A DNA stretch of 16,220 nt from Glaciimonas sp. (GTDB lineage: Bacteria; Pseudomonadota; Gammaproteobacteria; Burkholderiales; Burkholderiaceae). The stretch is taken from the NCBI GenBank assembly GCA_014377145.1, contig JACMQE010000186.1, forward strand, positions 1 through 16,220, written 5' to 3'. Positions 1 through 15,658 of the stretch are shown here, one piece after another. Both the position numbers and the translations under genes were made by a program. Every line of letters starts with the position of its first letter. The first letter of the stretch is position 1. The notes beneath the pieces are model-generated. The model made no database searches, had not been told where the DNA came from, and saw only the letters and a list, made by a program, of their open reading frames with translations.

Positions 1-637
1 CATCGGTGGCATCCATAAATGGTGCCAGGCGGCGGGCAACCGCACCGTAACCGGACTCAACCGCCAGACGTACCTGAAACCAAGCATCAGTTTGAGTAAA
101 TTGCATATTTTGTGCCAAAGTCCCAATCAAGTCAGTGCAACCGGGACCGTAATCCTTTGGATTCGTCAGTAGTGCCCGCGCCTCTTCAGCAACATTCCCA
201 CCTTTCAGGGCTTTCAACGTCAGGGCATAGCATTTAAGCTGGGTATCGTCATCCATTACAAACAGCGGGTATTGTTGATCAAAAGTAGTCCATATCCCAG
301 CCTTACCCAGCTCTAGCAGCCAATCATAGCGCTTCAGATAGCCGCGAATGTCAGACTCAGGCGCGATTAGGTCCTTGATGCGGAGCTTCAAACGGTAGTA
401 ATCTACGTACGAAGGAATATCATAATTACTCAAAACAGCCGCTAAACCGTCAACTATATCTACCTTGTTGGCGCGTGAAGCATTACGCAAGGCAAGAAAA
501 GCATCGTCTTGACCAGCATACTTGGCAGCATTAGCCAGCGCGGTTTGTGCAATCGCTACGGGCAATAAAGTAATCGCAGTGGTGACTAAAAACAGCGTAC
601 CTACAACCCATTTTGTTGCAAATTTTACGCGGTACAT
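1..637 (-). CDS. slt: Soluble lytic murein transglycosylase, N-terminal part (cut by window edge)
   Basis: About 212 N-terminal residues are visible; the gene runs off the left edge, so the catalytic SLT domain cannot be judged. It starts MYRVKFATKW, with a hydrophobic stretch to about residue 30 ending in AIAQ, which fits an export signal for a periplasmic enzyme that cleaves peptidoglycan glycan strands. The helical-repeat (U-shaped) domain of the family is recognisable from YDIPSYVDYYRLK, WTTFDQQYPLF and DDDTQLKCYAL. Odd: family members known to me read roughly KRYDG-x-AIADR-x-RNDWLLxLGK here, whereas this protein reads KRYDWLLELGK, as if about 11 residues were lost in frame near 318-332. 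The start at 637 lies only 33 bp from the divergent ygfA start. Family assignment is good; activity is unknown. Confidence 0.8.
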   Translation of the reverse strand, partial: MYRVKFATKWVVGTLFLVTTAITLLPVAIAQTALANAAKYAGQDDAFLALRNASRANKVDIVDGLAAVLSNYDIPSYVDYYRLKLRIKDLIAPESDIRGYLKRYDWLLELGKAGIWTTFDQQYPLFVMDDDTQLKCYALTLKALKGGNVAEEARALLTNPKDYGPGCTDLIGTLAQNMQFTQTDAWFQVRLAVESGYGAVARRLAPFMDATD

Positions 638-670
638 ACCTTAACAGTCTTTTATTTGCGAGTATGAATA

Positions 671-1297
671 ATGACACCTAGCATAGCATGCGATGCCTCC
701 GATTCAAGGTCTGAAGAAACTAATATCCAGAGGTGTAATAAGACGCACGATAAGGCCTATTTACGCAGCACATTATTAAAAATGCGCAAGTCCATCCAGG
801 AGGATCAGCGGCGTAGCTTGAGCACCACTATTGGCGAATACGTTATCAATTGGGCGAAAACATTGGCGGAGGACAATCCAAAGATCGTAATAGGTGTTTA
901 TTGGCCGATACGCAACGAACCAGATCTATGCACAGCGTATGACACTTTAATCGCTCAGGGCATAGGGCTGGCCTTGCCAGTAGTGGTGGATAAAGATGCA
1001 GCACTACGCTTTGTCCAATGGATACCGGGCGACGCCTTGACGAAAGACGGTTTCGGCATCACTATTCCAGTCAACGGCGCGGTAGTCAGTCCACGGATAC
1101 TACTAATCCCCTGCGTCGGTTTTAACCGACAAAGACTGCGATTGGGTTATGGCGGTGGATTTTATGACCGCACTTTGGCTATCGGTCACCGACCGATCAC
1201 GGTCGGAATTAGCTATGCAAACGGATTGGTGAACTTTGAAGGCGCGGCTCATGATATTGCTTTGGACCTGCTATTTACTGAAACGGGATATGTGTAA
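671..1297 (+). CDS. ygfA: 5-formyltetrahydrofolate cyclo-ligase
   Basis: A 208-residue cytosolic enzyme of the 5-FTHF cyclo-ligase family, which converts 5-formyl-THF to 5,10-methenyl-THF using ATP and so returns stored folate to the one-carbon pool. The family signature RLGYGGGFYDRTL (about residues 156-168) is intact, as is the YWPIRNEPDL segment near 77-86. Length is normal for the family (about 180-210), with about 25 poorly conserved residues before KAYLRSTLLKMRKS. The start at 671 is the first in-frame ATG; no clear ribosome-binding site was seen, so a later start is possible. It is divergent from slt with a 33-bp gap and convergent with the metF pseudogene, another folate enzyme. The symbol follows the E. 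coli homologue. Confidence 0.9.
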   Translation: MTPSIACDASDSRSEETNIQRCNKTHDKAYLRSTLLKMRKSIQEDQRRSLSTTIGEYVINWAKTLAEDNPKIVIGVYWPIRNEPDLCTAYDTLIAQGIGLALPVVVDKDAALRFVQWIPGDALTKDGFGITIPVNGAVVSPRILLIPCVGFNRQRLRLGYGGGFYDRTLAIGHRPITVGISYANGLVNFEGAAHDIALDLLFTETGYV

Positions 1298-1368
1298 AAC
1301 CAAATTGACGGGAGTTGCTTTGCGCTTGTTTTTCGGCTAGCTAGCGATCCTGTCCAGCTGCCTGTTCA

Positions 1369-2193
1369 TTACGTTAAGCGCTGCTAAATTGCAGTCGTCG
1401 CTGTGGCATTATTGAGCTTGTAAAAGTGCAACCCCGGCGCCCCCGGCTCGCAAACGTTCACACAATTGCGTGATGACATCAAGACCAAGCGCACGAATTG
1501 ATTCATTACCATCGCCCTAAGCAACCAGTTTAAGACGTATCCATCGCGGAATTTCAGTACCGCACATATCCGAGAACCGCATGAGTTGGGAATAATTAGT
1601 TATTAGCATGATGCCACCAGCTACCGGCACGGCAACGCCCAGTTTTTGCGCGTCCTCGATAAACCTGAAATACGCTTCAGAATTATAAAAATATTGCGTA
1701 ATAGCGTCGTTAGCACCCACTTTTATCTTCGCTGCGAAATCCTGCACATCGTCTTGGGGAGATTTTTCCTGCGGATGCATTTCAGGATAAGCACCCACTT
1801 CGATATGAAACCAGTCACCAGTTTTGGCGCGGATAAACTCAACCAACTTGTTCGCATAACGAAATTCGCCTGAAGAGGAATCCATCGCGCCGTAACCGCT
1901 AAGGGGCATCACTGCGCAATGCGACCAAGCGCTTGATACTGCGTGAGTATCGCCCGTAATGATTCGCGTGAGCTACCCAGACAGGACAAATGCGGTACGG
2001 CATCATAACCTTCACGACAAATTTCCAAGACCGTATCAAGCGTTCCTTTTTGGGTTGAGCCGCTCACGCCAAAGGTAACCGAAAAATATTTCAGATGTAG
2101 TTCAGTTAGTTTGGCCCGCGTCACACGTAATTTTTACGTACCGTCCAAAGTCTTTGGAGGGAAGAGCTCAATGCTGAAATTTTTTGGAGACAT
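1369..2193 (-). pseudogene. metF: 5,10-methylenetetrahydrofolate reductase pseudogene (three stops, two frameshifts)
   Basis: Reading from 2193 down, all three frames must be joined to rebuild MetF, the flavoprotein that reduces methylene-THF to the methyl donor for methionine synthesis. It starts MSPKNFSIELFPPKT, then TAA at 2134-2136 (codon 20). KYFSVTFGVSGSTQKGTLDT and PHLSCLGSSR follow, then a frame change near 1905-1925 where the conserved RGDLP segment is damaged. The next frame gives FRYANKLVEFIRAKTGDWFH, ITQYFYN and EIPRWIRLKLVA, then TAG at 1517-1519 replacing a usual Tyr. GDGNESIRALGLDVITQLCE follows, a second frame change near 1431-1445, then PGLHFYKLNNATATTAI and TAG at 1384-1386 replacing Trp, with the natural stop at 1369-1371. 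Total length, 825 bp, equals a full metF. Many independent lesions rule out a single sequencing error. The ATG abuts the stop of the upstream membrane gene. Confidence 0.93.
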
Positions 2194-2538
2194 TTATCTT
2201 TTTTTCAGTAATAACGTAGACAAGGCCCACGATACGATGCTGTACAAAATAGCGCCTACTACCGCTGCCCAGAAACTAGCAACATGAAAGCCGCCCACCA
2301 ATTGTGCGACTACCCAGAACATCAAGCCATTGATGATAAAAATGAACAGGCCAAGCGTCAACACATTAGCGGGCAAAGTTAATACCAACAATATCGGACG
2401 AACCAACGTATTCACAAAACCGAGGATCAGCGCAGCAATCAGCGCAGCACCAAAACTATCAACTGATACCGAATGCAATAAATACGGCACAGCCAGCAGC
2501 GCCAGCGCATTAATCAGCCAGGTAACCAGTAAACGCAT
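2194..2538 (-). CDS. Small four-helix inner-membrane protein, phage holin 4_2 (YvlD-like) family
   Basis: A 114-residue, strongly hydrophobic protein beginning MRLLVTWLINALALLAVPYL, with about four membrane segments and a Lys/Arg tail (LLLKKR). The central FVNTLVRPILLVLTLP is typical of the family annotated as phage holin 4_2 or YvlD-like. Despite the name, these are usually chromosomal genes of unknown function and there is no phage context here. I chose the ATG at 2538 because a purine-rich AAAGAGAAGAAA lies just upstream and the hydrophobic family N-terminus starts there; an extension to 2610 would add unlike residues. It lies between ahcY and metF, an order I associate with Burkholderiales, and its TAA directly touches the metF ATG. 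It appears intact although both neighbours are damaged. Confidence 0.82.
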   Translation of the reverse strand: MRLLVTWLINALALLAVPYLLHSVSVDSFGAALIAALILGFVNTLVRPILLVLTLPANVLTLGLFIFIINGLMFWVVAQLVGGFHVASFWAAVVGAILYSIVSWALSTLLLKKR

Positions 2539-2682
2539 TCGTTTCTTCTCTTTTGTAAAATTTATGAAACCTGTACACGTTAATTTTTTTATTAAATGCA
2601 TGAGATGCATTTTTCGCCATCTGCATTCAACACGCTTTTTACTTTTTTACACTTTATTTTCATGCTATTTCTTTACACCGCA

Positions 2683-4134
2683 CTAGTAACGATATTGTTC
2701 CGGTTTGTAAGGGCCGGTTTGCTTCACACCGATATACGCCACCTGTTCTTCCGTCAACACGCTCAATTGTGCGTTCAATTTTTTCAACTGTAGACGCGCA
2801 ACCTTCTCATCCAAATGCTTCGGCAAGGTATATACTCCGATTGGATAATCTTTGGCGTTAACGAACAATTCAATTTGCGCGATGGTTTGATTTGCAAACG
2901 ACGAACTCATGACGTAGGACGGATGCCCGGTACCACAACCCAAATTCACTAAGCGACCTTCGGCTAACAGAATGATACGTTTGCCATCCGGGAAAATAAT
3001 ATGGTCAACTTGCGGCTTGATGTTTTCCCACGTGTATTGCTAGAGCGCAGCGACTTCGATTTCATTATCAAAATGGCCGATATTACACACAATCGCCTGA
3101 TCTTTCATCTGCGTCATATGAGTATGAGTAATGACGTGATAATTACCGGTGCAGGTGACAAAAATGTCACCGTGCTCTGCTGCATAATCCATCGTCACGA
3201 CGCGATAACCTTCCATTGCGGCTTGCAAAGCGCAGATTGGGTCAACTTCTGTCACCCAAACTTGTGCTGACAGGGCACGCATGGCTTGTGCCGAACCCTT
3301 ACCTACATCCCCATAACCTGCAATGACAGCCAATTTACCGGCAATCATAACGTCGGTGGCACGCTTGATACCATCAACTAATGATTCACGACAACCGTAC
3401 AAATTATCAAACTTTGATTTGGTAACGGAGTCATTGACGTTAATCGCAGGGAATGCGAGCTTTTCCTCTTTATGCATTTGATACAAACGATGTACACCGG
3501 TAGTGGTTTCTTCCGTAACGCCTTTAATTTGTGCCAGACGGATTGAATACCATGTCGGCGAGATAGCCAATTTTTTCTTGATAGCGTTGAACAAACAAAT
3601 TTCTTCTTCCGAATTTGGATTTTTCAATACCGATGCGTCTTTTTCCGCACGTGTACCCAGATGCAACAACAGCGTAGCATCGCCACCGTCATCAACGATC
3701 ATATTGGCTTGCTCGTCACCCGGCCATTCAAAAATACGATGAGTAAATTCCCAATATTCATCCAATGATTCACCTTTAAAAGCGAATACTGGCGTACCGG
3801 CAGCGGCGATTGCAGCAGCAGCGTGATCTTGTGTTGAGTAAATATTGCAAGACGCCCAACGCACTTTAGCGCCTAACGCTTCCAGCGTCTGGATCAGTAC
3901 TGCAGTTTGAATCGTCATGTGAATCGAACCCGTTATGCGTGCGCCTTTAAGTGGTTGCGCAGCATTGAATTCTTGACGAATAGCGATCAGGCCAGGCATT
4001 TCAGTTTCAGCAATCCGGATCTCCTTATCGCCCCAACCAGACAAGCTGATATCGGCAATGATATAATCTGAAAATGCAGTAGAAGAGGAAGTAGAACTAT
4101 AAGTAGAGGTTAAATTCATTACAGCGGCGTTCAC
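2683..4134 (-). pseudogene. ahcY: Adenosylhomocysteinase interrupted by one in-frame amber codon
   Basis: S-adenosylhomocysteine hydrolase, an NAD-dependent cytosolic enzyme splitting SAH into adenosine and homocysteine. The GTG start at 4134 fits a strong AGGAGGG at 4139-4145, four bases away, and the MNAAV beginning of homologues; the ATG five codons later is too far from it. Visible motifs: [26 protein letters not shown] (96-109), [13 protein letters not shown] (232-244), the Rossmann GYGDVGKGS (273-281) and [15 protein letters not shown] (350-364). Codon 365 is TAG (3040-3042). Without any frame change, [40 protein letters not shown] and the C-terminal YKPEQYRY follow to a natural TAG at 2683. 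Full length, 483 codons, is normal. The truncated 364-residue product lacks the C-terminal Lys/Tyr that contacts NAD of the partner subunit, so it is probably inactive. A base-call error or suppression cannot be excluded. Confidence 0.85.
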
Positions 4135-4159
4135 CACGCCCTCCTTTCGTTGGAAAAAA

Positions 4160-4232
4160 ACGTAAGCGCGGTTGCATATTGCTACGATACCAAGCCTGGC
4201 AGAATGAGTCCGTCGCAACGCTCCTTGGCACG
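4160..4232 (-). ncRNA. SAH riboswitch in the ahcY leader
   Basis: On the minus strand the ahcY leader reads CCAAGGAGCGTTGCGAC (from 4228 down), then GCCAGGCTTGG (4200-4190), then GCAACCGCGCTTACG (to 4161). This matches my memory of the SAH riboswitch consensus (Rfam SAH_riboswitch): a P1 helix CCAAG/CTTGG, a conserved GAGCGYUGC, CAGGCU, and a 3' strand CGCUY pairing with GAGCG as a pseudoknot (here with one G-U). The class senses S-adenosylhomocysteine and raises expression of SAH-recycling genes. The aptamer ends about 15 bases before the AGGAGGG site, after a run of seven T, so control at the ribosome-binding site is plausible. Confidence 0.88.
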
Positions 4233-4240
4233 AATCCTGT

Positions 4241-4269
4241 ATTCTAAATCAAATTGCCATTGCTTTCAT
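4241..4269 (-). promoter_or_regulatory. Putative promoter of the ahcY operon
   Basis: Minus-strand -10 TAGAAT (4246-4241) and -35-like ATGAAA (4269-4264) with a 17-base spacer. A transcript starting about seven bases after the -10 would begin just before the SAH aptamer, the expected arrangement. The -35 matches only four of six consensus bases. It overlaps a small perfect inverted repeat, CATCGC-TTT-GCGATG, at 4267-4281. Confidence 0.45.
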
Positions 4270-4397
4270 CGCTTTGCGATGCGACTCTTCTAAAACGTAG
4301 AAAGGACGACTTAGATGACCTGTTTGGGAGAAGTTAGTCTCTTACTATGCCTCCGTGAGTTCGCTATTAAAAGCGACAAGGGGCTCCAACCTGCCTT

Positions 4398-5477
4398 TCA
4401 AACCCAACCCATTTCGTATAGTTCGCTTTTAATATAGGCATAATAAACTGGCGCCGCAACCAAACCAGGCAAACCAAACGCCGCCTCGGCCAACACCATT
4501 GCTAGCAACAATTCCCAGCTACGTGCATTAAGTTGGGAGCCGACTATGCGGGCGTTCAAAAAATATTCCAACTTATGAATCACTATCAGGAATACCATTG
4601 CAGCCAGCGCCACATACAATGATATTGATATTGCCACCAGAACAATCAGAGAATTTGAAATCAAATTGCCGATCACCGGCATTAACCCTGCCAGAAAAGT
4701 GACAACAATCATGGTTTTTGTCAATGGCAAATAGACGCCTGCCAGCCGCAAAAGCACCAACAAGAATATCGCTGTCAGCGTGGTATTGAGCAGAGATATT
4801 TTAATTTGGGCAAAAACGACGCGCCGAAATGCTTCGCCAAGAAATTGTACCCTCACCAAAAGTTGTGCACTTAGCGGCTGTAACACTGAGATAGGATGTT
4901 CAGCATTCAACGCCACCATTGTACCCAATACCATGCCAATCAAGACATGAATAAAGACCTGTATCGCTTCTTTTCCCGCCAGGGTCAGCTGGCCGTTATG
5001 GGACTCTATCCATTCAGTTACCATTTGCCGCGTATCGGCAATATCATCAGGCAAATAGCTCTGTAACAGAGTAGGCACTTGGGTGCGCGCCTGATCAATG
5101 ACTTCCATTAATTTAGTCTGAATGACCAGGATACGATCAGGACCGCCATGGAAGAATGCTACCAAACCAAAGATCGCCCCCGTCAGTGCGCCAATAATTA
5201 CCACCGATAAAAATACAACCGCAATTAAATGCGCGCGCTCGCTAGCCAGCCGGCGCTCGATCAGCGGGGTTAGGGAACGCACTAATTGGTACACAAGTAA
5301 CCCGGCCAATAAGGCTATCAGCAAATGCAATACCAACACTAACCACAAAACAACAATCGCGATTAGCCATGCAGTAATATGAAAGGGTGAGACGCTGCTG
5401 ATAACTGGGCGTAGTCTGGGTGACAGCTTATTGGGGACGGCAGATGCGTGACTGACAGGGAATTTGGATGAGGCCAT
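4398..5477 (-). CDS. AI-2E family (PerM/YdiK-like) membrane transporter
   Basis: A 359-residue polytopic inner-membrane protein. Hydrophobic segments lie near residues 32-66 (two helices), 83-110, 170-192 and several from about 220 to 345. An amphipathic soluble stretch (roughly 112-170, including QVPTLLQSYLPDDI and VTEWIESHNG) separates the N-terminal and C-terminal membrane blocks, the usual architecture of the family. Family-like segments in the C-terminal half include GLMPVIGNLISNS and LVAAPVYYAYIKSEL. Members have been linked to export of signalling molecules or ions, but most are uncharacterised, so the substrate is unknown. The ATG at 5477 opens MASSKFPVSH; no strong ribosome-binding site was seen. 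It is transcribed in the same direction as ahcY and metK but separated from both by non-coding stretches. It appears intact and of normal length. Confidence 0.8.
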   Translation of the reverse strand: MASSKFPVSHASAVPNKLSPRLRPVISSVSPFHITAWLIAIVVLWLVLVLHLLIALLAGLLVYQLVRSLTPLIERRLASERAHLIAVVFLSVVIIGALTGAIFGLVAFFHGGPDRILVIQTKLMEVIDQARTQVPTLLQSYLPDDIADTRQMVTEWIESHNGQLTLAGKEAIQVFIHVLIGMVLGTMVALNAEHPISVLQPLSAQLLVRVQFLGEAFRRVVFAQIKISLLNTTLTAIFLLVLLRLAGVYLPLTKTMIVVTFLAGLMPVIGNLISNSLIVLVAISISLYVALAAMVFLIVIHKLEYFLNARIVGSQLNARSWELLLAMVLAEAAFGLPGLVAAPVYYAYIKSELYEMGWV

Positions 5478-5662
5478 ATTAGATTAACCGAAGTGCTATG
5501 AGCGCGGGTGAAGATGTCGCGAGTGCTACTAATAGTGCTGATGGGCCTGATGTTTCTTATTTAATGTTGTTGACAATACAGTCCAGTGTAACAAGTTCTA
5601 GGCATCAGCAAAGATTCATTTTGAACCTATATTTGTGCTTGCTTGCTGGCATGTAAATGTAA

Positions 5663-5688
5663 AGTAGGTCTGGTTCCTCAGACCTACT
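5663..5688 (-). terminator. Hairpin, possible metK transcription terminator
   Basis: A perfect 10-bp inverted repeat, AGTAGGTCTG / CAGACCTACT, with a 6-base loop. On the minus strand it is followed by TTACATTTACA, a poor but T-containing tail. It lies about 135 bp past the metK stop, beyond the inverted-repeat element, so it would terminate metK or be bidirectional. The weak T tract keeps confidence moderate. Confidence 0.55.
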
Positions 5689-5710
5689 CGTTTATTAAAT
5701 CTCGCTTACA

Positions 5711-5813
5711 TAGGACTTACACAAAATTATTGCAGCAAGGGGTACCACAGAAGACAGCACGCTATTGGAGCCAGGAGAGCACAATGCCGCCGGTGCTGTT
5801 TTGTGTAAGCCTA
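5711..5813. mobile_element. 103-bp MITE-like element with terminal inverted repeats
   Basis: The left end TAGGACTTACACAAAA (5711-5726) and right end TTTTGTGTAAGCCTA (5799-5813) are inverted repeats: 11 bp perfect (CTTACACAAAA), then TAGG/CCTA after a one-base offset. A second inner pair, ACAGCAC (5754-5760) / GTGCTGT (5793-5799), abuts the right arm. There is no coding capacity. The size and ends suggest a non-autonomous relic of an insertion sequence, though a long hairpin terminator is an alternative. It sits 10 bp downstream of the metK stop. No clean target-site duplication was seen (flanks TTACA and ATACA are only similar). Confidence 0.5.
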
Positions 5814-5823
5814 TACATTCAAC

Positions 5824-6981
5824 TTACAAAGATGCCTTCAATGCAGCGGCTTTGTCAGTCCGCTCCCAGCTAAACTCTGGTTCCTCACGACCAAAATGGC
5901 CGTAGGCAGCGGTTTTTTCGTAAATCGGACACAACAAGTCGAGCATTTGCACGATTCCCTTCGGGCGCAAGTCAAAATGTTCCAGCACTAGTTTGGCCAG
6001 CTTTTGATCACTGATCTTGCCTGTACCAAAAGTCGTTACCATCACTGAAGTAGGCTTAGCGATACCGATGGCGTAGGAAACTTGAATCTGGCAACGACTA
6101 GCCAATCCAGCAGCGATGATATTCTTAGCAACATAGCGGCCAGCATAAGCAGCAGAACGGTCAACTTTCGACGGGTCCTTACCCGAAAAAGCTCCGCCGC
6201 CATGGGGTGCGGCCCCACCATAAGTATCCACAATAATTTTACGTCCGGTCAAACCGCAATCGCCTTGCGGTCCTCCAATGACGAAGCGACCGGTAGGATT
6301 AACCAAGTAATTAGTGTTTTGCAGCCATTCCTTTGGCACCACCGGCTTGATAATTTCTTCAATTGCCGCTTCCCGAATATCTTCGTGGAGCATTTCCGGT
6401 GCATGCTGCGTGGACAGCACGATCGTGTCGATGGCAACGGGAATGCCATCGATATACTTCAAAGTAATCTGAGACTTTGCATCTGGACGGAGCCAAGGCA
6501 ATCGACCATCCCGGCGTAACTGGGATTGGCGCTCGACAATACGGTGTGCATAATAAATCGCAGCAGGCATGAATTCGGGGGTTTCGTCGCACGCATAGCC
6601 AAACATCAAGCCTTGATCACCCGCGCCTTGGTCAAGATCAAGTCCTTTACCTTCATCCACCCCTTGAGCGATATCCGGTGATTGCTTGTCATATGCCACC
6701 AATACTGCACAGCTTTTGTAGTCGATCCCATACTCGGCATTGTCGTAACCGATACGCTTGATTGTCTCGCGGGCTATGTTGATGTAATCGACATTGGCAT
6801 GAGTAGTGACTTCGCCGGCCAAAACAACCAAACCGGTATTGACCAAAGTTTCGGCTGCAACCCGTGCGAACGGGTCTTGCGCCAAAATAGCATCAAGAAT
6901 TGCATCGGAAATTTGATCAGCGACCTTGTCAGGATGTCCCTCGGAAACGGATTCAGAGGTAAAGAGGTATTCGTTTGTCAT
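5824..6981 (-). CDS. metK: S-adenosylmethionine synthetase
   Basis: A 385-residue cytosolic enzyme making SAM from methionine and ATP. All key signatures are intact: GHPDK (15-19), [16 protein letters not shown] (119-134), and the glycine-rich phosphate loop [17 protein letters not shown] (261-277). [11 protein letters not shown] and the C-terminal [13 protein letters not shown] also match the family. Length is normal (about 385-395). The ATG at 6981 has an AGGAG about nine bases upstream. The gene is divergent from the acyltransferase unit across about 280 bp that holds a predicted promoter, a structured leader and a perfect palindrome. Unlike ahcY and metF it is undamaged, so SAM synthesis seems still to be required. 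Confidence 0.97.
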
Positions 6982-6986
6982 AACAA

Positions 6987-7046
6987 CAGGCTCCTGCTAA
7001 AAAGAAATACAGTGGTGACCGTGCCGCAGTCCTGCTGTAGAGCCTG
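6987..7046 (-). promoter_or_regulatory. metK: Possible structured metK leader masking the ribosome-binding site
   Basis: In the metK leader (minus strand) CAGGCTC (7046-7040) is complementary to GAGCCTG (6993-6987), which overlaps the AGGAG ribosome-binding site; G-U pairs could extend both ends. A small stem ACGGT-cacc-ACTGT lies between them. It does not match any SAM riboswitch class I recognise. This is suggestive only. Confidence 0.3.
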
Positions 7047-7064
7047 CGACGCTTTAGCGAAATT

Positions 7065-7093
7065 TATATACCGCTTCGCAAGTTGTCTATTAA
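7065..7093 (-). promoter_or_regulatory. Putative metK promoter
   Basis: Minus-strand -35 TTAATA (7093-7088), 17-base spacer, -10 TATATA (7070-7065). Four of six and five of six consensus positions match. It implies a leader of about 75 nt before the metK ATG. Confidence 0.5.
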
Positions 7094-7145
7094 CTCGGCG
7101 GATGAATATCGGGCGAATGTGGCCAAGTATTCTTGGATAATCGGC

Positions 7146-7169
7146 TAATTCTTATTGCAATAAGAATTA
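7146..7169. promoter_or_regulatory. Perfect 24-bp palindrome between metK and the acyltransferase unit
   Basis: The half-site TAATTCTTATTG is followed immediately by its exact reverse complement, with no spacer. It is AT-rich, not followed by a T run, and lies in the divergent intergenic region about 55 bp above the predicted metK -35 and about 95 bp before the lpxL start. An operator for a dimeric regulator is the most natural reading. The regulator is unknown. Confidence 0.45.
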
Positions 7170-7264
7170 AAACGTTACATGAAAACTAAATGAATAACTC
7201 GCCACGAAGACATTTAGGCTTACAACGAAATACTATTCTACGCCTTTTATAACATTTCGGCAAA

Positions 7265-8149
7265 ATGCCTCCCCGCCCTCTCATGCTTATCGCTCTCTTT
7301 AAATTATTATCAAGATTACCGCTTTGGGCGTTGCACACAATCGGCGCAGCCGTCGGTTGGTTAGTGTATCTAATATCCCCGTCTTATCGGCGCAAACTAA
7401 AAAACAACCTGAACAGGGCTGGATTTCAGCGCTATTCATCACAAGCCATTTGCGAGTCTGGCAAAAGCATGTTCGAACTCCCGTTCATTTGGTGCGCTGC
7501 GCCGGAGAAAGTTTTACGGACTGCACGGATCGAAAATTGGGCATTAGCGCAATCGGCGCTCGATGCCAAAACCGGCGTCATTTTTTTAACGCCACATCTC
7601 GGTTGCTTTGAAATCATTGCACAGGTGATTGCTGCCAAAACTTCTTTCACCGCCCTGTACCGCCCGCCACGCAAAGCGGCGTTAAAATCGTTAATTGAAG
7701 ATGCCCGCGCACGTCGCAATTTACATCTTGCTCCGGCGAATCTGAATGGAGTACGGGCTTTGTTAAAAGCATTAAAAAAAGGTCAGGCCATCGGCTTGTT
7801 GCCAGATCAGGTGCCACAAAATGGTGAAGGTGTTTGGGCCACATTCTTTGGTAAACCCGCCTACACCATGACCTTATCCGCCAAATTACATCTAATGAGT
7901 GACGCACCGATTATTCTGTCGTATGCAGAGCGGCTCTCTTTTAGTCGTGGTTTTGTGATTCGGTTTGCGCCATTTGAAGAAGAACTTGGCGCGACACCGG
8001 AACAGCAAGCGCGGGCCATCAATATCGCGATGGAAAAACTCATCGGCCGTTGCCCGTCCCAATATATTTGGAGTTACAACCGCTACAAAATCCCTCCTGG
8101 CGTCAGTGCGCCAAGCAATCCCATCACAGATAATCCGGGCCAAGTATGA
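7265..8149 (+). CDS. LpxL/HtrB-family lysophospholipid (lipid A) acyltransferase, first copy
   Basis: A 294-residue protein of the bacterial lipid A biosynthesis acyltransferase family, which transfers a fatty acid from acyl-ACP to a lipid A precursor at the cytoplasmic face of the inner membrane. The N-terminal hydrophobic stretch (about 7-37) is followed by the catalytic HX4E motif in TPHLGCFE (His111, Glu116). Also visible are ALYRPPRK, GLLPDQVPQNGEGVWATFFG and the C-terminal YIWSYNRYK. ATG 7265 gives the longest form; the internal ATG at 7283 (MLIALFKLLSRLPL) better matches the usual family start, and neither has a clear ribosome-binding site. Its TGA overlaps the start of the next acyltransferase as ATGA, so the two are co-translated. 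Which lipid A position it acylates cannot be read from sequence. Confidence 0.88.
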   Translation: MPPRPLMLIALFKLLSRLPLWALHTIGAAVGWLVYLISPSYRRKLKNNLNRAGFQRYSSQAICESGKSMFELPFIWCAAPEKVLRTARIENWALAQSALDAKTGVIFLTPHLGCFEIIAQVIAAKTSFTALYRPPRKAALKSLIEDARARRNLHLAPANLNGVRALLKALKKGQAIGLLPDQVPQNGEGVWATFFGKPAYTMTLSAKLHLMSDAPIILSYAERLSFSRGFVIRFAPFEEELGATPEQQARAINIAMEKLIGRCPSQYIWSYNRYKIPPGVSAPSNPITDNPGQV

Positions 8150-9015
8150 GACTGCTGATTTTCTTATTGTGGCTGACGCACTGGCTCCCGCTTTGGGTTC
8201 TGGGTCCAATTGGTGAAGCACTAGGTTCAATCCTATTCATCATTATGAAACCGCGTCGCAAGATCACGCTGACGAATTTAAAAATGTGTTTCCCAGATAT
8301 GCCTGAGCAAGAACGGGTGGTGTTGGCAAGGCGTCATTTCCAAGCCTATGCGCGTAGTGCTCTGGAGCGCAGCGTATTATGGTGGGCCTCTGAAGTGCGC
8401 CTCAAAAGATTGATTCATATCGAATCTGCGATTCCGCTGAATACCCTTGAGGCAGGGCCAACGATTTTGCTATGCCCGCACTTTGTCTGCCTGGAAATTC
8501 CGGGTATTGCCCTGGTATTAAATTCGTCACTTTCAATTTGCACTATTTACACCTGTCAGCAAGACAAAGTGGTTGACGCGGCCTTGCTTAAAGGACGCTC
8601 ACGTTTTCGCCCAGTAAAGTTATTCACACGTGAACAAGGTGTCAAACCCATTATCCGTGCGATGCACGAAGGATTTCCTTTTATCATGCTGCCGGATATG
8701 GATTTTGGCACCAAGGATTCCGAATTTGTGCCGTTCTTTGGCATTCCCGCAGCCACTTTAACAGCCACCGCCAGAATTGCCGCTGCAACCAAAGCCCGCG
8801 TCGTACCTATGATTGCTACGTTCTTGCCCGGTTACAAAGGCTGGAAAGTCGCTTTCTATCCTGCCTGGGAAAATTATCCCGGCGATGACATCATTGAAGC
8901 CACTCAGCGAATGAATGCATTTATAGAAGCGCGAGTGTTAGAGGCACCAGCTGAATATTTCTGGGCGCACAGGCGCTTCAAAACCAGACCAACCGGCGAG
9001 CCTGATCCTTATTAA
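8146..9015 (+). CDS. LpxL/HtrB-family lipid A acyltransferase, second copy
   Basis: A 289-residue paralogue of the preceding gene, sharing the fold and motifs but clearly diverged. It begins [20 protein letters not shown], a membrane anchor, and carries the HX4E motif in [11 protein letters not shown] (His112, Glu117). [20 protein letters not shown], a hallmark of LpxL-type enzymes, and the C-terminal [13 protein letters not shown] follow. The ATG overlaps the upstream TGA by four bases, so translational coupling is likely. Together the pair would add the two secondary acyl chains of lipid A, or one may act on another lysolipid. It appears intact. Confidence 0.9.
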
Positions 9016-9104
9016 TCAGTTGCGGCCAGTTGATACTGATTGCACATGCTGACTCAAATTCACAACGCCAGTTTTCGCCGACAATTCTAAAAGCGTATAA
9101 GCCC

Positions 9105-9110
9105 TATAAT
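9105..9110 (+). promoter_or_regulatory. Possible dapF -10 element (leaderless start)
   Basis: A perfect TATAAT ends six bases before the dapF ATG at 9117. A transcript starting about seven bases downstream would begin at the ATG itself. No Shine-Dalgarno sequence is present and no good -35 was found, so this is tentative. Confidence 0.35.
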
Positions 9111-9116
9111 CAAGCA

Positions 9117-9983
9117 ATGAAACTCAAATTTACTAAGATGCATGGCGCAGGCAACGATTTTATCGTGATTGATGCGATCAACCAGCAATGTGACTTTACG
9201 CAGGCCCAATGGCAAGCGCTAGCCGACCGTCATTTCGGCATTGGTGCTGATCAGATATTAGTAGTCGAAAAACCGCAAGCGGCAGGCGTCGATTTTCGCT
9301 ATCGGATTTATAACGCTGATGGCAGCGAAGTTGAGCAGTGCGGTAACGGGGCACGCGCGTTCGTCAGATTTGTCACCGAAAAAGGCCTGACCGGCAAACG
9401 CGCAATTAAAGTCGAAACTATGTGTGGCGTGATCGAACCCAGGCTAGAAACCGATGGCACCATCACAGTAAATATGGGTGCACCTATTTTGGCACCATCC
9501 CACGTCCCCTTCGACGCCCGTGCACTGGACCCCACGCAAGAAGGCGCGGATACTCTATGGCCACTCGATATTAAAGGCAAAACTGTGCTGTTTTCGATTG
9601 TCTCTATGGGTAATCCTCATGCGGTTCAAGTAGTGAGCAATACAGAAGTTACCCCCGTGCTGGATGATGGCCCTCTGATTGAGCATCATCCGCGCTTTCC
9701 CAAACGTGTTAACGCTGGGTTTATGCAGGTCATTAATCGCCATCAAATTAAATTGCGGGTATTTGAACGTGGTGTTGGTGAAACGCTGGCTTGCGGCACC
9801 GGGGCTTGTGCCGCCGTCGTCGCAGGTATCCAGCGCGGCTTACTAGACTCTCCAGTAAAAGTGCAGACCCATGGCGGCGAATTATTGATAACTTGGAATG
9901 GTCTCAATCAACCGGTCAAAATGACCGGACCGGCAGTGACCGTGTTCGAAGGTGAAATCGAAGTAAATACTGACAAGCAGTGA
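9117..9983 (+). CDS. dapF: Diaminopimelate epimerase
   Basis: A 288-residue cofactor-independent epimerase that converts LL- to meso-diaminopimelate for lysine and peptidoglycan. The start at ATG 9117 ([19 protein letters not shown]) matches the family; an upstream in-frame extension to 9030 adds 29 unlike residues. Both catalytic cysteines are present: Cys75 in [15 protein letters not shown] and Cys226 in [25 protein letters not shown], typical of the family, is at about 163-170. It follows the acyltransferase pair by about 100 bp in the same direction. In relatives as I recall them, DUF484 and xerC follow directly; here about 3.9 kb intervenes. It appears fully functional. Confidence 0.97.
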
Positions 9984-9984
9984 C

Positions 9985-10011
9985 GCAACATCTAAGTAAT
10001 GAGTATGTTGC
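9985..10011 (+). terminator. Weak hairpin after dapF
   Basis: A perfect 7-bp inverted repeat GCAACAT / ATGTTGC with a 13-base loop, beginning two bases after the dapF stop. There is no adjacent T run, so intrinsic termination is doubtful. The convergent sel1-repeat gene ends at 10073, and another short stem, CAACG-agaac-CGTTG, lies near its end. Confidence 0.3.
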
Positions 10012-10072
10012 CGATAATCGTTTGCATTTGGAAGCGTATGTCTTTTAATATCTTTAACAACGAGAACCGTTG

Positions 10073-11758
10073 CTAGACATTCGTATCTGCAATTTCTTCA
10101 TCTTCCTTTACCCTCTTGCCTACAACACCCAACGCGGGCAGTGCGGTCTTGAAACGATATAGCCGCTGGCGGTAATTTCCCTCTGGACCATCTGGCCCGC
10201 AATCAACATCTTCGAACATTCGCGCAAGCCGATTGAACGTCTGGCGTTCATCACCGGTTTCAATTAATATCAGCCGACGCTTGCTGCGAGCATAATACGC
10301 CCTGATATCCACCACCAAACAGTGACCGCAATCAGCATGGTTTACGTCCAGCAATAATGCTTCAGGCCGACTTAAGCCAAATAACAGCGCAAGCTCGATA
10401 CGTGCAGCCAAAAACGGATGACTGGCGACCAACTCTCGCGTCAACTGCTGTTTAGCGGTCAGCGCCCAGGCCATTGGATGCACGTGATCGGCAATTTTTG
10501 CTAGCAGCCTCTGCGCAACCATATCTCCCTGAATGGCAGCTTTTTGCAACCAATAGACCGCTTGCACATCATTCGTCAATTTTTCACGTCGATTGCGCCA
10601 GGCGCTGACGCCACATTCCAACTGCGCTGCACAATGCCCCATCTCTGCGGCATGTGCCAAATGGCGCTGCATGTCGATCAGATTACGCTGAGAAAATTCA
10701 GATTTTAAATATATCCTCGACAACGCATACCAGGCCTCAGATAAACCACGTTCCCCTGCCTGCGTCAGCCAGCGGATCGCCTTTTTATAATTAGCAGAAC
10801 CGGCACCGACAACAATCCGCTCGCCATCGCTATCCATACGAGCGTACCACAACCCCAAATCTAGCTGGGCGGATTTGTCGTCAGCAGACGCCGCCAGCTC
10901 CAAAAATTGCTGGACCTCAATGACGCCAAAGTCTGTCGTCATCATTAAAACACACGCGCAACGGGTCAATAACAGTAGATTCGCTTCACCCAAGCGCCGC
11001 GCCAATGTGTTTGACGGAGCATGCAATTGGGCTAATTCTCCGCTGTATTGCTGCGCGACGGCACGGGCCAGGGGCAGTCCACGCTCTAAAAATACTGGCC
11101 AGTCCTGACCCTCCCAAGCAATTTCGGCCAGGGCATGTTGCGCTTGCATGACGCCAGCATCAGCTGCGCGTGAAGTCCATTCAAATGTCGTCCCGACAGC
11201 ATCGACACCCCCAGATGCCATTAGTAAGCCAGAATTACCCTCGTCGCCAACAACGTCATCCTTATTAGCAGGACTTTCGCTAGTTTGAGCTTTCAACTGT
11301 ACCGTCGTCGCATCAGATTTTGCCGCGTGCTGCGCCAATAACCACTGTGCTTCAGGAATGCCAGCATGAGCAGCCGTTTTTAGCGCCTTCATTGCCTTCC
11401 CCCAAAAGTCCCTGAGTGCCATATTTGCATTCAGCCGGTCGTTATCGCGCAAGACCAACTGCGCCAGAACCAGTCCTGCCTGTATGACGCCGTTATCAAA
11501 CGCTCGCTCATACCATCCACATATATCTCTGAGATTACTTGCACCAAGTGCCACATCAAGAGGTATGTGACTACCAATTAATATCCATGCATCCGCTTCC
11601 TGCTTTCGCGCGGCCCGATCCAGCCAGTGCAATGCAGTAGGAAAGTTCTGCGGCAATCCGTTACCACCAAATAGGTAACGCTTTCCCAGCGCCAGTTGCG
11701 CTGCGCCCTGTCCAGCACGCGCAGCGCGAATAATCACCAAGTCTTCACGTTTAGCCAT
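10073..11758 (-). CDS. Sel1-repeat (TPR-like) protein with a distinct C-terminal region
   Basis: About 561 residues starting MAKREDLVIIRAARAGQG; a GTG two codons upstream (11764) is an alternative. Several Sel1-like helical repeats are visible: AAQLALGKRYLFGG with ALHWLDRAAR near the N-terminus, EAQWLLAQHA, VMQAQHALAEIAW, SAQLDLGLWYA with AIRWLTQAGERG, EAWYALSRIYL, CAAQLECGVSAW, then AVYWLQKAAIQGDMVAQRLL to about residue 430. Such repeats usually mediate protein-protein contacts. No signal peptide is seen, so it is probably cytosolic. The last 130 residues contain ELALLFGLSRPEALLLDVNH and HCLVVDIRAYYARSKRRLIL and are not a repeat I recognise. The repeat spacing is irregular, with a low-complexity insert around residues 150-185. 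It is convergent with dapF. The precise role is unknown. Confidence 0.75.
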   Translation of the reverse strand: MAKREDLVIIRAARAGQGAAQLALGKRYLFGGNGLPQNFPTALHWLDRAARKQEADAWILIGSHIPLDVALGASNLRDICGWYERAFDNGVIQAGLVLAQLVLRDNDRLNANMALRDFWGKAMKALKTAAHAGIPEAQWLLAQHAAKSDATTVQLKAQTSESPANKDDVVGDEGNSGLLMASGGVDAVGTTFEWTSRAADAGVMQAQHALAEIAWEGQDWPVFLERGLPLARAVAQQYSGELAQLHAPSNTLARRLGEANLLLLTRCACVLMMTTDFGVIEVQQFLELAASADDKSAQLDLGLWYARMDSDGERIVVGAGSANYKKAIRWLTQAGERGLSEAWYALSRIYLKSEFSQRNLIDMQRHLAHAAEMGHCAAQLECGVSAWRNRREKLTNDVQAVYWLQKAAIQGDMVAQRLLAKIADHVHPMAWALTAKQQLTRELVASHPFLAARIELALLFGLSRPEALLLDVNHADCGHCLVVDIRAYYARSKRRLILIETGDERQTFNRLARMFEDVDCGPDGPEGNYRQRLYRFKTALPALGVVGKRVKEDEEIADTNV

Positions 11759-12484
11759 AAACACTCATCACGCAAAAGCGTAAATTATCTCCGATAAATT
11801 ACGAATTCTTTATTTGATAACAATTATGAATAAAGTTCGCGTCTTTAATACAACATATTAAAAAAATTGGTTATTATCGTCCAATCACCATCTAGCAAGT
11901 TCAATTATGCCTTGTATGGCGGTGTGCTTATAAAAGCACAAAAGACCGCCATCTCCTATCAATACCCAACTCCTCAGACGTTTAAGAAAAATTTTTACTC
12001 TTTTATAAAAAGAAGGAAATTACTTTTTTAAGCCCTAGTAGGATGTGTTGAGCTTTATTTCTACCAAGGTACCGTGAAGCTGCGAGAGCCACGAATAAAG
12101 CAAAATGCGAATTAACACGTGCTAATCAAGAAATAATTCATTTAACTGGGCGCCTAAATCAACTCAGATAATTCGCCGATATAGTAATAAAAATACAACA
12201 TTTCTTATTTCAGCTTAAAATTTTCACCTCATTGCGCTCAAATAATTCATCGAAAATATGAAAAAAAACAGAGAATTAGCGGAAGGCATTGCACGACTCA
12301 GAAAGACCACCCTCACCGTTATGTCACATAAATACAACAGAATCGCCAAACCTCGTCAATTTCGACCAATTTATAGCGCGACAGAAGACCAAACCTACAG
12401 CGTAAATAGCCGGACCTATTACTGTTCTATCATCCGACAGATGTACGGATCCTTAAAGCAGGCTTTCCAAATAAAGGACGTCAA
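11759..12484. other. 726-bp AT-rich non-coding region between divergent sel1-repeat gene and porin
   Basis: No convincing gene on either strand. A 76-codon frame at 12258-12488 lacks a ribosome-binding site and recognisable features. The stretch holds the nested hairpin at 11916-11952, several AT runs, and presumably the promoters of both flanking genes plus a long porin leader. The porin ribosome-binding site AAAGGA is just before 12485. A minus-ten-like TATAAA at 12004-12009 has no good partner. Confidence 0.55.
11916..11952. repeat. Nested inverted repeat (strong hairpin)
   Basis: The outer arms ATGGCGGT (11916-11923) and ACCGCCAT (11945-11952) are perfect. Directly inside, GTGCTT and AAGCAC pair around an ATAA loop, leaving a single AAAAG bulge on the 3' side. 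That is 14 base pairs in 37 bases, the most GC-rich point of an AT-rich interval. Neither side is followed by a T run. It could belong to a small RNA, the porin leader or an attenuator. Confidence 0.5.
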
Positions 12485-13660
12485 ATGAAGAAATCACTAA
12501 TCGCACTGGCCGTACTAGGCGCAATTGCAGGTGCAGCACAAGCTCAAAGCTCAGTAACAATCTACGGTATCGTTGATACTGGCGTTACTTATTCTAATAA
12601 AGCTCTGAACACTGCCACTGGCGCAACCGGTAACAAAGTTGAAGTTAACTCGGGCGTCGTGCGGGGTTCGCGTCTGGGTTTCAAAGGCGCTGAAGATCTG
12701 GGCGGCGGTTTGAAAGCAGTGTTCCAATTGGAAACTGGCTTTTCCAATGACACAGGCGCGTTACAAAGTGACAAGAGCAATACGGGTGCCAGCACATTTT
12801 TTCGCCGTAAATCAGTCGTTGGCCTGAGCGGCGACACCTTCGGTACAATCTTGTTAGGTCGTCAGACTGACATAGCTGATGATCTTAGTATCTGGACTTC
12901 AGTTGCAGATTTTGGTGGCGTAACTGGTAACGTCGGTCATAATCTAAATCGTTTGGAAGGCGCACGTACCCAAAACTCAATCCGCTACAATACACTAAAC
13001 CTATCTGGCTTCACTGCCAGCGCGATCTACGGTTTCGGCGAAACAGTTGGTCAAACAGCTGCTGGCCAATCGTTCGGTCTGGGTGGTCAGTATGCTAACG
13101 GCCCACTCGCCTTATTTGCTACCTACTACCAGTCGAAAAAAGGCAATAAACCGAGCGATGTGTCTCTGACAAACGCTGCTGTGTTTTATGCTGGTAACCC
13201 AGGCGATATAGCTCTGAAGACATTCAGTGTCGGTGCTAGCTATGAAGCCGGCCCTGCCCGTATTTATGGTAACTGGTCACGCGTTAAGCAACCTTTGGCA
13301 ACAGCTGCTGCTCTGAATCCATTGGCAGCTGCCAATGGATTCAGCATTGGCAGCTTCAACAATAGCAGGGCTGACATCTTTGAACTGGGTACTAACTACA
13401 TGTTGACAGCTCCTTTACATTTGTTAGCTAGTATTCAATACAGCAAGCTGAGTTTTGTTGATGTTGGTTCACCAAAGGGAAAATTGACTCAATTCAATTT
13501 AGGTACGGACTACTTCCTGTCGAAGCGTACTGATCTGTACGCTTTTGCTTCATACTTGCGTGCCAAAAATGCTACTAATCTAGGCGTTATGAGTGGTGAT
13601 AGCATTGGTTCAAACAATAGCCAAACAGCAGTTTCTGTTGGTATCCATCACAAATTTTAA
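12485..13660 (+). CDS. Gram-negative general porin (Burkholderiales OmpC-like, porin_4 type)
   Basis: A 391-residue outer-membrane beta-barrel for diffusion of small solutes, expected to be a 16-strand trimer. The signal peptide MKKSLIALAVLGAIAGAAQA is cleaved before QSSVTIYGIVDTG, the usual first strand. VRGSRLGFKGAEDLGGGLKA and FFRRKSVVGLSGDTFGTILL are family hallmarks. The protein ends VSVGIHHKF with the C-terminal Phe needed for barrel insertion. The start is fixed by AAAGGA nine bases before ATG. A long non-coding region precedes it and a strong terminator follows, so it is probably a monocistronic, highly expressed gene. Odd: the coding sequence contains a 32-bp perfect palindrome (residues about 277-287, ALNPLAAANGFS), probably in a surface loop. 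Confidence 0.95.
   Translation: MKKSLIALAVLGAIAGAAQAQSSVTIYGIVDTGVTYSNKALNTATGATGNKVEVNSGVVRGSRLGFKGAEDLGGGLKAVFQLETGFSNDTGALQSDKSNTGASTFFRRKSVVGLSGDTFGTILLGRQTDIADDLSIWTSVADFGGVTGNVGHNLNRLEGARTQNSIRYNTLNLSGFTASAIYGFGETVGQTAAGQSFGLGGQYANGPLALFATYYQSKKGNKPSDVSLTNAAVFYAGNPGDIALKTFSVGASYEAGPARIYGNWSRVKQPLATAAALNPLAAANGFSIGSFNNSRADIFELGTNYMLTAPLHLLASIQYSKLSFVDVGSPKGKLTQFNLGTDYFLSKRTDLYAFASYLRAKNATNLGVMSGDSIGSNNSQTAVSVGIHHKF
13313..13344. repeat. 32-bp perfect palindrome inside the porin gene
   Basis: The half CTGAATCCATTGGCAG is followed immediately by its exact reverse complement. The 11-base CATTGGCAGCT of the centre recurs as a direct copy at 13345-13355. The palindrome keeps the reading frame open (LNPLAAANGFS). 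This pattern is typical of a template-switch or inverted-duplication event during replication. Confidence 0.9.
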
Positions 13661-13713
13661 TATAAGTTAGTCAACTCTGCTGCAACGTAGAGATAACCGC
13701 TTAGTTAGAAACC

Positions 13714-13756
13714 AAAGGGTCCACATGATTTTTTATGTGGGCCCTTTGACATTTTT
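13714..13756 (+). terminator. Porin transcription terminator
   Basis: A 13-bp stem, AAAGGGTCCACAT / ATGTGGGCCCTTT with one T-G pair, an 8-base loop GATTTTTT, then GACATTTTT. It lies 54 bp after the porin stop on the coding strand. It would isolate the porin from the downstream DUF484 relic and xerC. Confidence 0.88.
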
Positions 13757-13865
13757 AAGTCTAAAATAAATGCAGCATCGCAATACTAGCGATATTTGTC
13801 ATGCATTACCATATTGGTGATACTCTCGGACTTTCAATCACACTCATTCAAAACACAAGCACATC

Positions 13866-14535
13866 ATGAGCAGCTATTTGGGTCCCGATACCGTCGTACA
13901 ATACCTTGCGGAAACGCCGCATTTCTTTGTAGAACATGCCGAGCTAATAGGAAAAATCAAGCTGACCAGTCCAATACTAGGCCATGCCATTTCTCTACAA
14001 GAGCGGCAGATGGAGATATTGCGTGAAAAAATTAAAGTCCAAGACCTGCGCCTTGCTGATATGGTGCGTAACGCCCAAGAAAACGACGGCATCAGCGACA
14101 AACTGCAAATTTGGTCACGCAGTCTGCTCATGGCACGTAGCGATGTTGATATACCGCATGCTGTCATCACCGGATTACAGACAATATTTAATGTGCCTCA
14201 GGTTACTATGCGACTTTGAGATGTCGCTGATAGCTTTTCACAAACCTAGTTTGCTGCACCAGCATCTGCCGATTCAAAGCTTTTTTCCACTAGCCTGAGC
14301 GTCCCTTTTTGCGGTGGCAATAATGATTTTGAAGCATTATCCTGGCTCGAACATAAGGCTGAAATTCAATCCATCGCCATGTTGCCATTGCGCGTAAATA
14401 CAGCAGAAAGCACTTTTGGATTGTTAGTCTTATGCATCGTCCGACGCAGACCGTTTTCGCCCCAATATGGCAACCGATTTTCTTAGCAAGATAGGCGATA
14501 CCGCCAGCGCCGCGCTCGCCTGCCTACTTACCTAG
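13866..14535 (+). pseudogene. DUF484 family protein pseudogene (two stops, one frameshift)
   Basis: The intact beginning MSSYLGPDTVVQYLAETPHF, the helical region ISLQERQMEILREKIKVQDL and VITGLQTIFNVPQVTMRL match DUF484, a GAF-like protein usually encoded just before xerC. Codon 118 is TGA (14217-14219) where homologues commonly have Trp after VTLRL. A second stop, TAG, is at 14247-14249. The frame then continues SADSKLFSTSLSVPFCGGNN, FEALSWLEHKAEIQSIAMLP and TFGLLVL to about 14432. One inserted base near 14433-14437 shifts the frame, after which DADRFRPNMATDFLSKIGDT and SAALACLLT run to a natural TAG at 14533. Rebuilt length, about 222 residues, is normal. Its function is poorly known, so the effect of loss is unclear. 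Confidence 0.92.
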
Positions 14536-14550
14536 ACGATTATCTTTACC

Positions 14551-15555
14551 ATGCCGGGTGACAGCCAATCCCAATACCAGCACGCTAGTTCTGCGGCAGC
14601 TATTGATGCGTATTTGACCAGCCTGGTTGATCAGTGCAAGTTATCGCCTCACACTGTCCGCAACTATTCACGCGACCTGGCCGAATTATTTTCGCTAATC
14701 TCAGCTCTCAGCAAAAGCAGTGAAGAAAGCGTCAATTTCACGAAGCTATCTCACATGCATATACGGAAATTTGCAGCACAACTGCATTCTCGCGGCTTGA
14801 ATGCACGTTCGATTGCTCGCAAGCTTTCTGCGTGGCGCGGATTTTTTAACTGGCTGGGAGAACACACACCACTCGCCAACAATCCCGTCGAAGGGATCAA
14901 AGCCCCCAAACGTGCCAAACCGTTGCCAAAAGTATTGGGGCAGGACGATACGATACGACTTGTGACTACCAGTGGCAATGCCGTTAGCCAGCAGAGTCCA
15001 ACGCTAACCGCCTGTAATCGTGCCATGTTCGAATTGTTGTACTCCAGCGGCTTACGCGTATCAGAGTTGGCAGGACTTGACCTGCGTTACACGGCAAAGA
15101 CCGGATATACTTCGGACGGATGGATCGATACTGATGCCGCTGAAGTCAACGTCACGGGCAAAGGTGATAAGAAGCGGACTGTTCCGGTCGGGCAACCAGC
15201 GTTGCAAGCGATTGCTGAATGGCTGCCGTTACGCAACACCTTAGTAAAACATGACAATATTTTTGCGCTCTTTTTGACTGAACGCGGCAGCCGCATGTCA
15301 CCTCGCGTAATTCAGCTACGGTTAAAGGCACATGCACAAGCGCTCAACATCCCAACCGCTGTTCACCCCCACGTATTACGCCATTCGTTTGCCTCACACC
15401 TGCTACAAGGATCAGGAGACTTACGCGCAGTGCAGGAGATGCTCGGTCATACCTCTATCACGTCTACACAAGTCTACACATACCTTGATTTTCAACGTCT
15501 AGCGCAGGTGTACGATGCGGCACATCCACGTGCAAAAAAAATGTCAAAAAAATAA
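14551..15555 (+). CDS. xerC: Tyrosine recombinase XerC
   Basis: A 334-residue site-specific recombinase that, with XerD, resolves chromosome dimers at dif during division. The N-terminal SAM-like DNA-binding domain (about 15-110) includes LSPHTVRNYSRDLAE and ARSIARKLSAWRGFFNWL. The catalytic domain has every key residue: Arg169 in SSGLRVSEL, Lys204 in VTGKGDKKRTVPVG, His274 and Arg277 in HPHVLRHSFASHLLQG, His300 in LGHTS, and nucleophile Tyr309 in STQVYTYLD. The position after DUF484 favours XerC over XerD. It starts 15 bp after the relic's natural stop, suggesting an original dapF/DUF484/xerC-type unit; with DUF484 broken, transcription must now pass through the relic. No strong ribosome-binding site was seen at ATG 14551. 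Confidence 0.94.
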   Translation: MPGDSQSQYQHASSAAAIDAYLTSLVDQCKLSPHTVRNYSRDLAELFSLISALSKSSEESVNFTKLSHMHIRKFAAQLHSRGLNARSIARKLSAWRGFFNWLGEHTPLANNPVEGIKAPKRAKPLPKVLGQDDTIRLVTTSGNAVSQQSPTLTACNRAMFELLYSSGLRVSELAGLDLRYTAKTGYTSDGWIDTDAAEVNVTGKGDKKRTVPVGQPALQAIAEWLPLRNTLVKHDNIFALFLTERGSRMSPRVIQLRLKAHAQALNIPTAVHPHVLRHSFASHLLQGSGDLRAVQEMLGHTSITSTQVYTYLDFQRLAQVYDAAHPRAKKMSKK

Positions 15556-15658
15556 TTCTCTCACAGAAGGGTAGAACAATTCCACGCAAAATAGGCAACT
15601 GCATTGCAATTTTGGGGGATAATTAAATTTTATTTATTCTTCTCACATGTGTCCTGGC

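Follow-up and report, generated by a model that had tools for sequence, protein, structure and literature searches.

The methyl-cycle operon on a 16,220-base contig of a Glaciimonas-like bacterium (the contig was analyzed as a whole and is called the window here) is most plausibly, with a probability of roughly 0.7, a standard SAH-riboswitch operon in the early reductive decay of a gene-losing lineage, with an aptamer that persists by inertia. Glaciimonas is a cold-soil bacterium. On the minus strand of the window, a promoter-like element and the SAH aptamer are followed by ahcY, a gene for a small membrane protein of the PF04020 family, and metF (Table 1). This is the standard betaproteobacterial arrangement and its layout has already been published: a regulon description lists ahcY, metF and PF04020 among the targets of the SAH riboswitch in Betaproteobacteria, with PF04020 as a taxon-specific operon member in Ralstonia and Burkholderia (PMC4239095). 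That regulon resembles the window in having the aptamer ahead of ahcY and in uniting ahcY with metF and a PF04020 membrane gene in one operon, while the window differs in its dead metF, its interrupted ahcY and its weakened output hairpin. Literature titles and abstract openings yielded no description of such a decayed operon with a leftover riboswitch.

Table 1. Features of the decayed operon and its surroundings, in coordinates of the window.
Feature	Position	Strand	Remarks
Promoter-like element before the operon	4241..4269	-	ATGAAA-17-TAGAAT; conserved in Glaciimonas-like relatives
SAH riboswitch aptamer (RF01057)	4157..4232	-	52.8 bits, E 1.7e-7; gathering score 37
Expression-platform hairpin pairing the ahcY ribosome-binding site	4132..4166	-	weakened by substitutions and a 4-base deletion
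ahcY	2683..4134	-	GTG start at 4134; single in-frame amber at 3042-3040
PF04020 small membrane protein	2194..2538	-	open; 121.1 bits (cut-off 28.8), E 3.9e-35
metF pseudogene	1369..2193	-	six disabling lesions
metK	5824..6981	-	intact neighbor, used as control
DUF484 pseudogene	13866..14529	+	two stops and one 1-base insertion; between porin and xerC

Chromosomal Setting

The closest relative in the comparison is Glaciimonas sp. PCH181 (genome G117, locus L119), with which the window is colinear across 16 kb at ~78% nucleotide identity, and the window therefore represents the orthologous chromosomal place and not a moved copy. The PCH181 operon shares this gene order over 16 kb, and its PF04020 and AhcY proteins are 96.5 and 92% identical to those of the window, but its three genes are all open and its output hairpin folds at -13.7 kcal/mol. 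The order ahcY, PF04020, metF recurs in all 20 relatives fetched, and in a set of 80 loci, some of them cut by contig ends, PF04020 comes after ahcY in 17 and metF in 60. A near-identical sister strain was not found, the best other match of the Sel1-repeat protein being 81% among its best 120 matches; that of AhcY in a protein search was 94%. No plasmid record spans 80% of positions 2683-7200, the only stretch searched for this purpose. Eight control genes in the window (slt, perM, metK, lpxL1, lpxL2, dapF, sel1, and xerC) are open, slt over the part of it that lies on the contig.

Several further features of the region may be recorded. The GC content of the window (1-16220) is 47.6%, compared to 50.9% in the matching PCH181 region, which fits a drift towards A+T. 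An inverted repeat between ahcY and the PF04020 gene is seen in PCH181 (L119, ~13501-13539) and in Collimonas (L122, 4568-4604) and is degenerate in the window. The porin gene is open, and its variable loop contains a perfect 32-base palindrome (13313-13344) that is absent in the five relatives aligned.

Order of Gene Loss

The metF gene was originally described as destroyed, and it proved to carry three stops (one at codon 20, an internal amber and a late amber) and three frame-shifting indels (deletions of 14 and 2 bases and an insertion of 1 base), such that no open frame of ~275 residues for MetF (TIGR00676) exists; furthermore, its decay is clearly older than that of ahcY. The internal stop reported for ahcY is also real in the sequence as it stands and is a single amber at codon 365 of 483 in an otherwise full frame. 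It arose by substitution in a column occupied by lysine in 118 of 123 homologs, and thus not in a strictly conserved one (two odd sequences, P0001 and P0038, were dropped before alignment). P0001, an AhcY of 559 residues encoded on a metagenome contig, contains an internal duplication that may stem from faulty assembly. PF05221 and PF00670 are both matched within the first 364 residues, which score 451, below the TIGR00936 cut-off of 497.6, and a full-length uninterrupted enzyme is not encoded. The truncated AhcY is without the last 119 residues and so presumably without some of the NAD site. A sense reading of TAG, by read-through or by recoding, was rejected as the default, given that the terminal stop of ahcY is itself TAG.

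The relative ages of these losses were approached with a codon model that gave the window branch a separate omega against seven relatives (the porin, Fur-like, and 5-FCL genes were not fitted). Omega on the window branch is 0.162 for metF (background 0.037, 2dlnL 26.7) and 0.338 for the DUF484 gene (background 0.090, 2dlnL 15.7), the latter pseudogene being a sign of wider decay. For ahcY it is 0.062 against 0.029 (2dlnL 7.5), a ratio of 2.1, while the ratios of eight open neighbors range from 1.1 to 2.1, with lpxL1 also at 2.1. As two of these neighbors, lpxL1 (2dlnL 6.6) and sel1 (4.8), are individually elevated, some of the relaxation is lineage-wide. For the PF04020 gene, which is short and offers little power, omega is 0.082 against 0.033 (2dlnL 1.5), and the fit becomes worse by 5.2 if omega is set to 1 over the whole branch. 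With the PCH181 branch as foreground, ahcY, metF, metK, and PF04020 did not change significantly (2dlnL 0.5-2.9).

By simple proportion, calculated by hand, metF has been neutral for ~13% of the window branch, or about one tenth of the period after divergence from PCH181. Had ahcY been neutral as long as metF, ~67 amino-acid changes would be expected and ~30 are seen (P 6e-7), and for the PF04020 protein ~5 are seen on the window branch against ~16 expected (P 0.0014), where both tests use rounded site numbers and hand-copied distances. As judged from these substitution patterns, decay is shown to have been stepwise, metF being lost first and well before ahcY, and ahcY and the PF04020 gene clearly outlived metF as constrained genes. 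As these two genes remained constrained after metF died, the operon was not abandoned all at once.

The amber in ahcY is either recent or an error, since amino-acid change in ahcY is little above that of intact neighbors. The second alternative, a sequencing or assembly error or else a minor strain variant, would mean that AhcY is still made and that only metF, together with the DUF484 gene, has been lost. It draws on the facts that a lone substitution interrupts ahcY, that ahcY is hardly more relaxed than open neighbors such as lpxL1, and that only two near-invariant AhcY columns are changed in the window, a number within the range of up to eight in other homologs, although the five Glaciimonas-like relatives show none. 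The contig is otherwise clean, however, with the control genes open, real pseudogenes lie ~0.8 and 11 kb away, and TAG, which is also the terminal codon of ahcY, does not simply encode an amino acid here. On balance, an error or a minor variant is considered unlikely.

The Aptamer and Its Output Hairpin

The presence of an SAH aptamer was confirmed by a score well above the gathering score of RF01057 (Table 1). It is the only match in the window at Rfam gathering scores, and it covers positions 1-78 of 78 with the conserved core and stems of the family, one stem pair (two marked positions) being non-standard; in 15 relatives the aptamer scores 49.3-62.6 bits. Among 12 aligned leaders, none of the 37 aptamer columns that are invariant in the other 11 is changed in the window. 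As ~2 of 37 changes would be reckoned by hand if the aptamer had been neutral as long as metF, this is only weak evidence either way. The operon was also said to have a recognizable promoter, and this can be upheld in part: the element is conserved in the Glaciimonas-like relatives, but its pattern is at chance level, with 6 occurrences in positions 1300-4400 compared to 6.3 expected. The strong ribosome-binding site reported for ahcY is indeed present (-12.1 kcal/mol), and the start codon has changed to GTG.

It is the output side of the switch that differs from that of the relatives. The hairpin that pairs the ahcY ribosome-binding site has a folding energy of -7.6 kcal/mol in the window compared to -13.7 to -14.3 in 26 relatives (these 26 of 30 fitted the hairpin search pattern and were folded; the other four did not fit), and three more loci of the 80-locus set that fit the pattern gave -11.3, -13.2, and -15.2. 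Of 32 platform columns, five are changed, two by substitution and three as part of a single 4-base deletion; the two substitutions fall at otherwise invariant columns and keep pairing as G-U, which counts against the decay reading. When mutants were generated at random in two runs of 5,000, each bearing three transitions and a 4-base deletion, 62 and 64% were as stable as the window hairpin or more so, hence there is no sign that the hairpin is being maintained. It can still fold, the predicted pairing of the ribosome-binding site being 0.33-0.98 in the window and 0.57-1.00 in 11 relatives. These energies omit the aptamer pseudoknot, and the whole leaders of the window and two relatives fold no better than shuffles. 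In terms of predicted structure, the hairpin that would switch ahcY translation off is shown to have eroded. The view in the initial annotation that the sensing apparatus looks intact thus applies to the aptamer core, which is unchanged, but not to the hairpin that hides the ribosome-binding site, which has lost ~6 kcal/mol.

It had further been asked whether the switch now works for the membrane protein alone, with riboswitch and promoter kept just to express PF04020. The gene was described as still open, and it is: it encodes a PF04020 protein by a Pfam match far over the cut-off, nearly identical to its PCH181 counterpart, and, by the deficit of amino-acid changes given above, its coding sequence has stayed under selection since the death of metF. 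Its own ribosome-binding site, however, has weakened to -2.9 kcal/mol, compared to -5.6 to -8.3 in 17 of 20 relatives (another has -3.6, and placement of the start failed in L134 and L136). Moreover, the membrane gene lies ~1.6 kb downstream of the ahcY start, which is where the eroded output hairpin acts, and a switch at one translation start would be expected to affect a distal gene only via coupling or polarity. In the Collimonas-like operon described below, an aptamer persists although the membrane gene is dead. Retention of the switch solely for PF04020 is therefore improbable.

Methyl-Cycle Genes in Relatives

Among 21 close relatives, metF has one match over the cut-off in every genome, always open and inside the operon beside ahcY (two have a further weak match below the cut-off), and AhcY has a single strong match in each. 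More widely, AhcY was matched in 290 of 294 family genomes, with no internal stop among the matches listed. That the operon has decayed redundantly, with intact ahcY and metF elsewhere in the genome after a recent duplication or on a plasmid, is very improbable in view of the single matches over the cut-off in relatives and the orthologous place of the window. The proposal of a reductive decay of the methyl cycle was strengthened instead, by these single AhcY and MetF matches in 21 of 21 relatives, by the DUF484 pseudogene, and by the rate of the lineage, whose branch length in five concatenated window proteins is 0.132 compared to 0.050 for PCH181, or ~2.6 times faster than its sister.

An SAH/MTA nucleosidase was found over the cut-off in 5 of the 21 relatives, and these are exactly the Glaciimonas-like genomes (G021, G084, G117, G102, and G061, the last counted by joining two pieces), so such relatives have a route for SAH removal that bypasses AhcY, but in the absence of MetF they should be unable to make methyl-folate. 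These five have the nucleosidase beside AhcY and no LuxS, which was found in none of the 21. In eight of the 21 relatives, MetH is over the cut-off in all and MetE in seven, and each has one SAH riboswitch (150 candidates scored per genome). MetN (TIGR02314) gave full-length matches of 412-427 bits in all eight, none of which reaches the cut-off of 499.7, and as an argument for methionine import it was set aside for this reason.

A Second Decayed Operon

Fourteen of the 294 family genomes were examined further, namely the four lacking any AhcY match and ten in which that match is weak. The SAH riboswitch is kept in 8 of the 14 and in none of the four that have no AhcY, so that a lasting leftover aptamer is not a general outcome. 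Two of these genomes, G108 and G242, were closely inspected because their metF is fragmented, and the other weak AhcY matches may be just contig ends. In the Collimonas-like locus L139 (G108:C26), ahcY has 6 stops and several indels, the PF04020 gene has lost 42 bases and contains 3 stops, and metF is broken by frame-shifts and a stop. L139 groups with the Collimonas locus L122, apart from the window, on a long branch (0.084 compared to 0.018), and it is an independent second case of a decayed operon. Like the window, it has an aptamer over the Rfam cut-off (39 bits) before broken ahcY and metF genes while metK, perM, lpxL2, and dapF are open. It differs in its lineage, in its broken PF04020 gene and in the state of its switch, in which the aptamer has decayed more than the nearly intact hairpin (-12.9), the reverse of the window.

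Bin G108 also contains a further SAH riboswitch (L140, 6175-6246, 54.1 bits) on a scaffold with N's, and the start directly after it presumably belongs to metH. Because of this second riboswitch the bin may be mixed, but the L139 contig itself is coherent. G242 was dropped as a third broken operon, as metK, lpxL, dapF, and sel1 are frame-broken there too in an error-rich assembly; nearly every gene tested at this locus (L141, 65% GC) is frame-broken over 18 kb, which mimics a decayed operon.

Discussion

The early reductive decay favored here would proceed as follows. The cell would take methionine or methyl groups from outside, and this supply would make both the provision of methyl-folate and the recycling of homocysteine dispensable. 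SAH would be removed by an SAH/MTA nucleosidase, judging from its presence in the Glaciimonas-like relatives, or by a partner. The aptamer would still match its family because mutations have had too little time to strike a target of 76 bases, and not because it has acquired a new job.

A bolder conjecture, on which we place little weight, joins both decayed operons in a repeatable course of death in genome-reducing Oxalobacteraceae, with metF dying early and the sensor outliving the genes, and adds a partly-on switch in the Glaciimonas-like lineage that feeds only PF04020. If this were true, the PF04020 protein would act under SAH or methyl stress in a role separate from AhcY and MetF.

Under early reductive decay with an inert aptamer, the window captures a riboswitch-controlled pathway in mid-decay, in which part of the order of loss would be readable, metF going before ahcY and the hairpin changing while the aptamer core did not. 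Together with the Collimonas-like case, it indicates that a riboswitch match above the Rfam cut-off is no evidence of a working pathway, a point of importance when pathways are called automatically. The window also offers a natural setting for testing if the PF04020 protein, a known operon passenger, functions apart from its neighbors.
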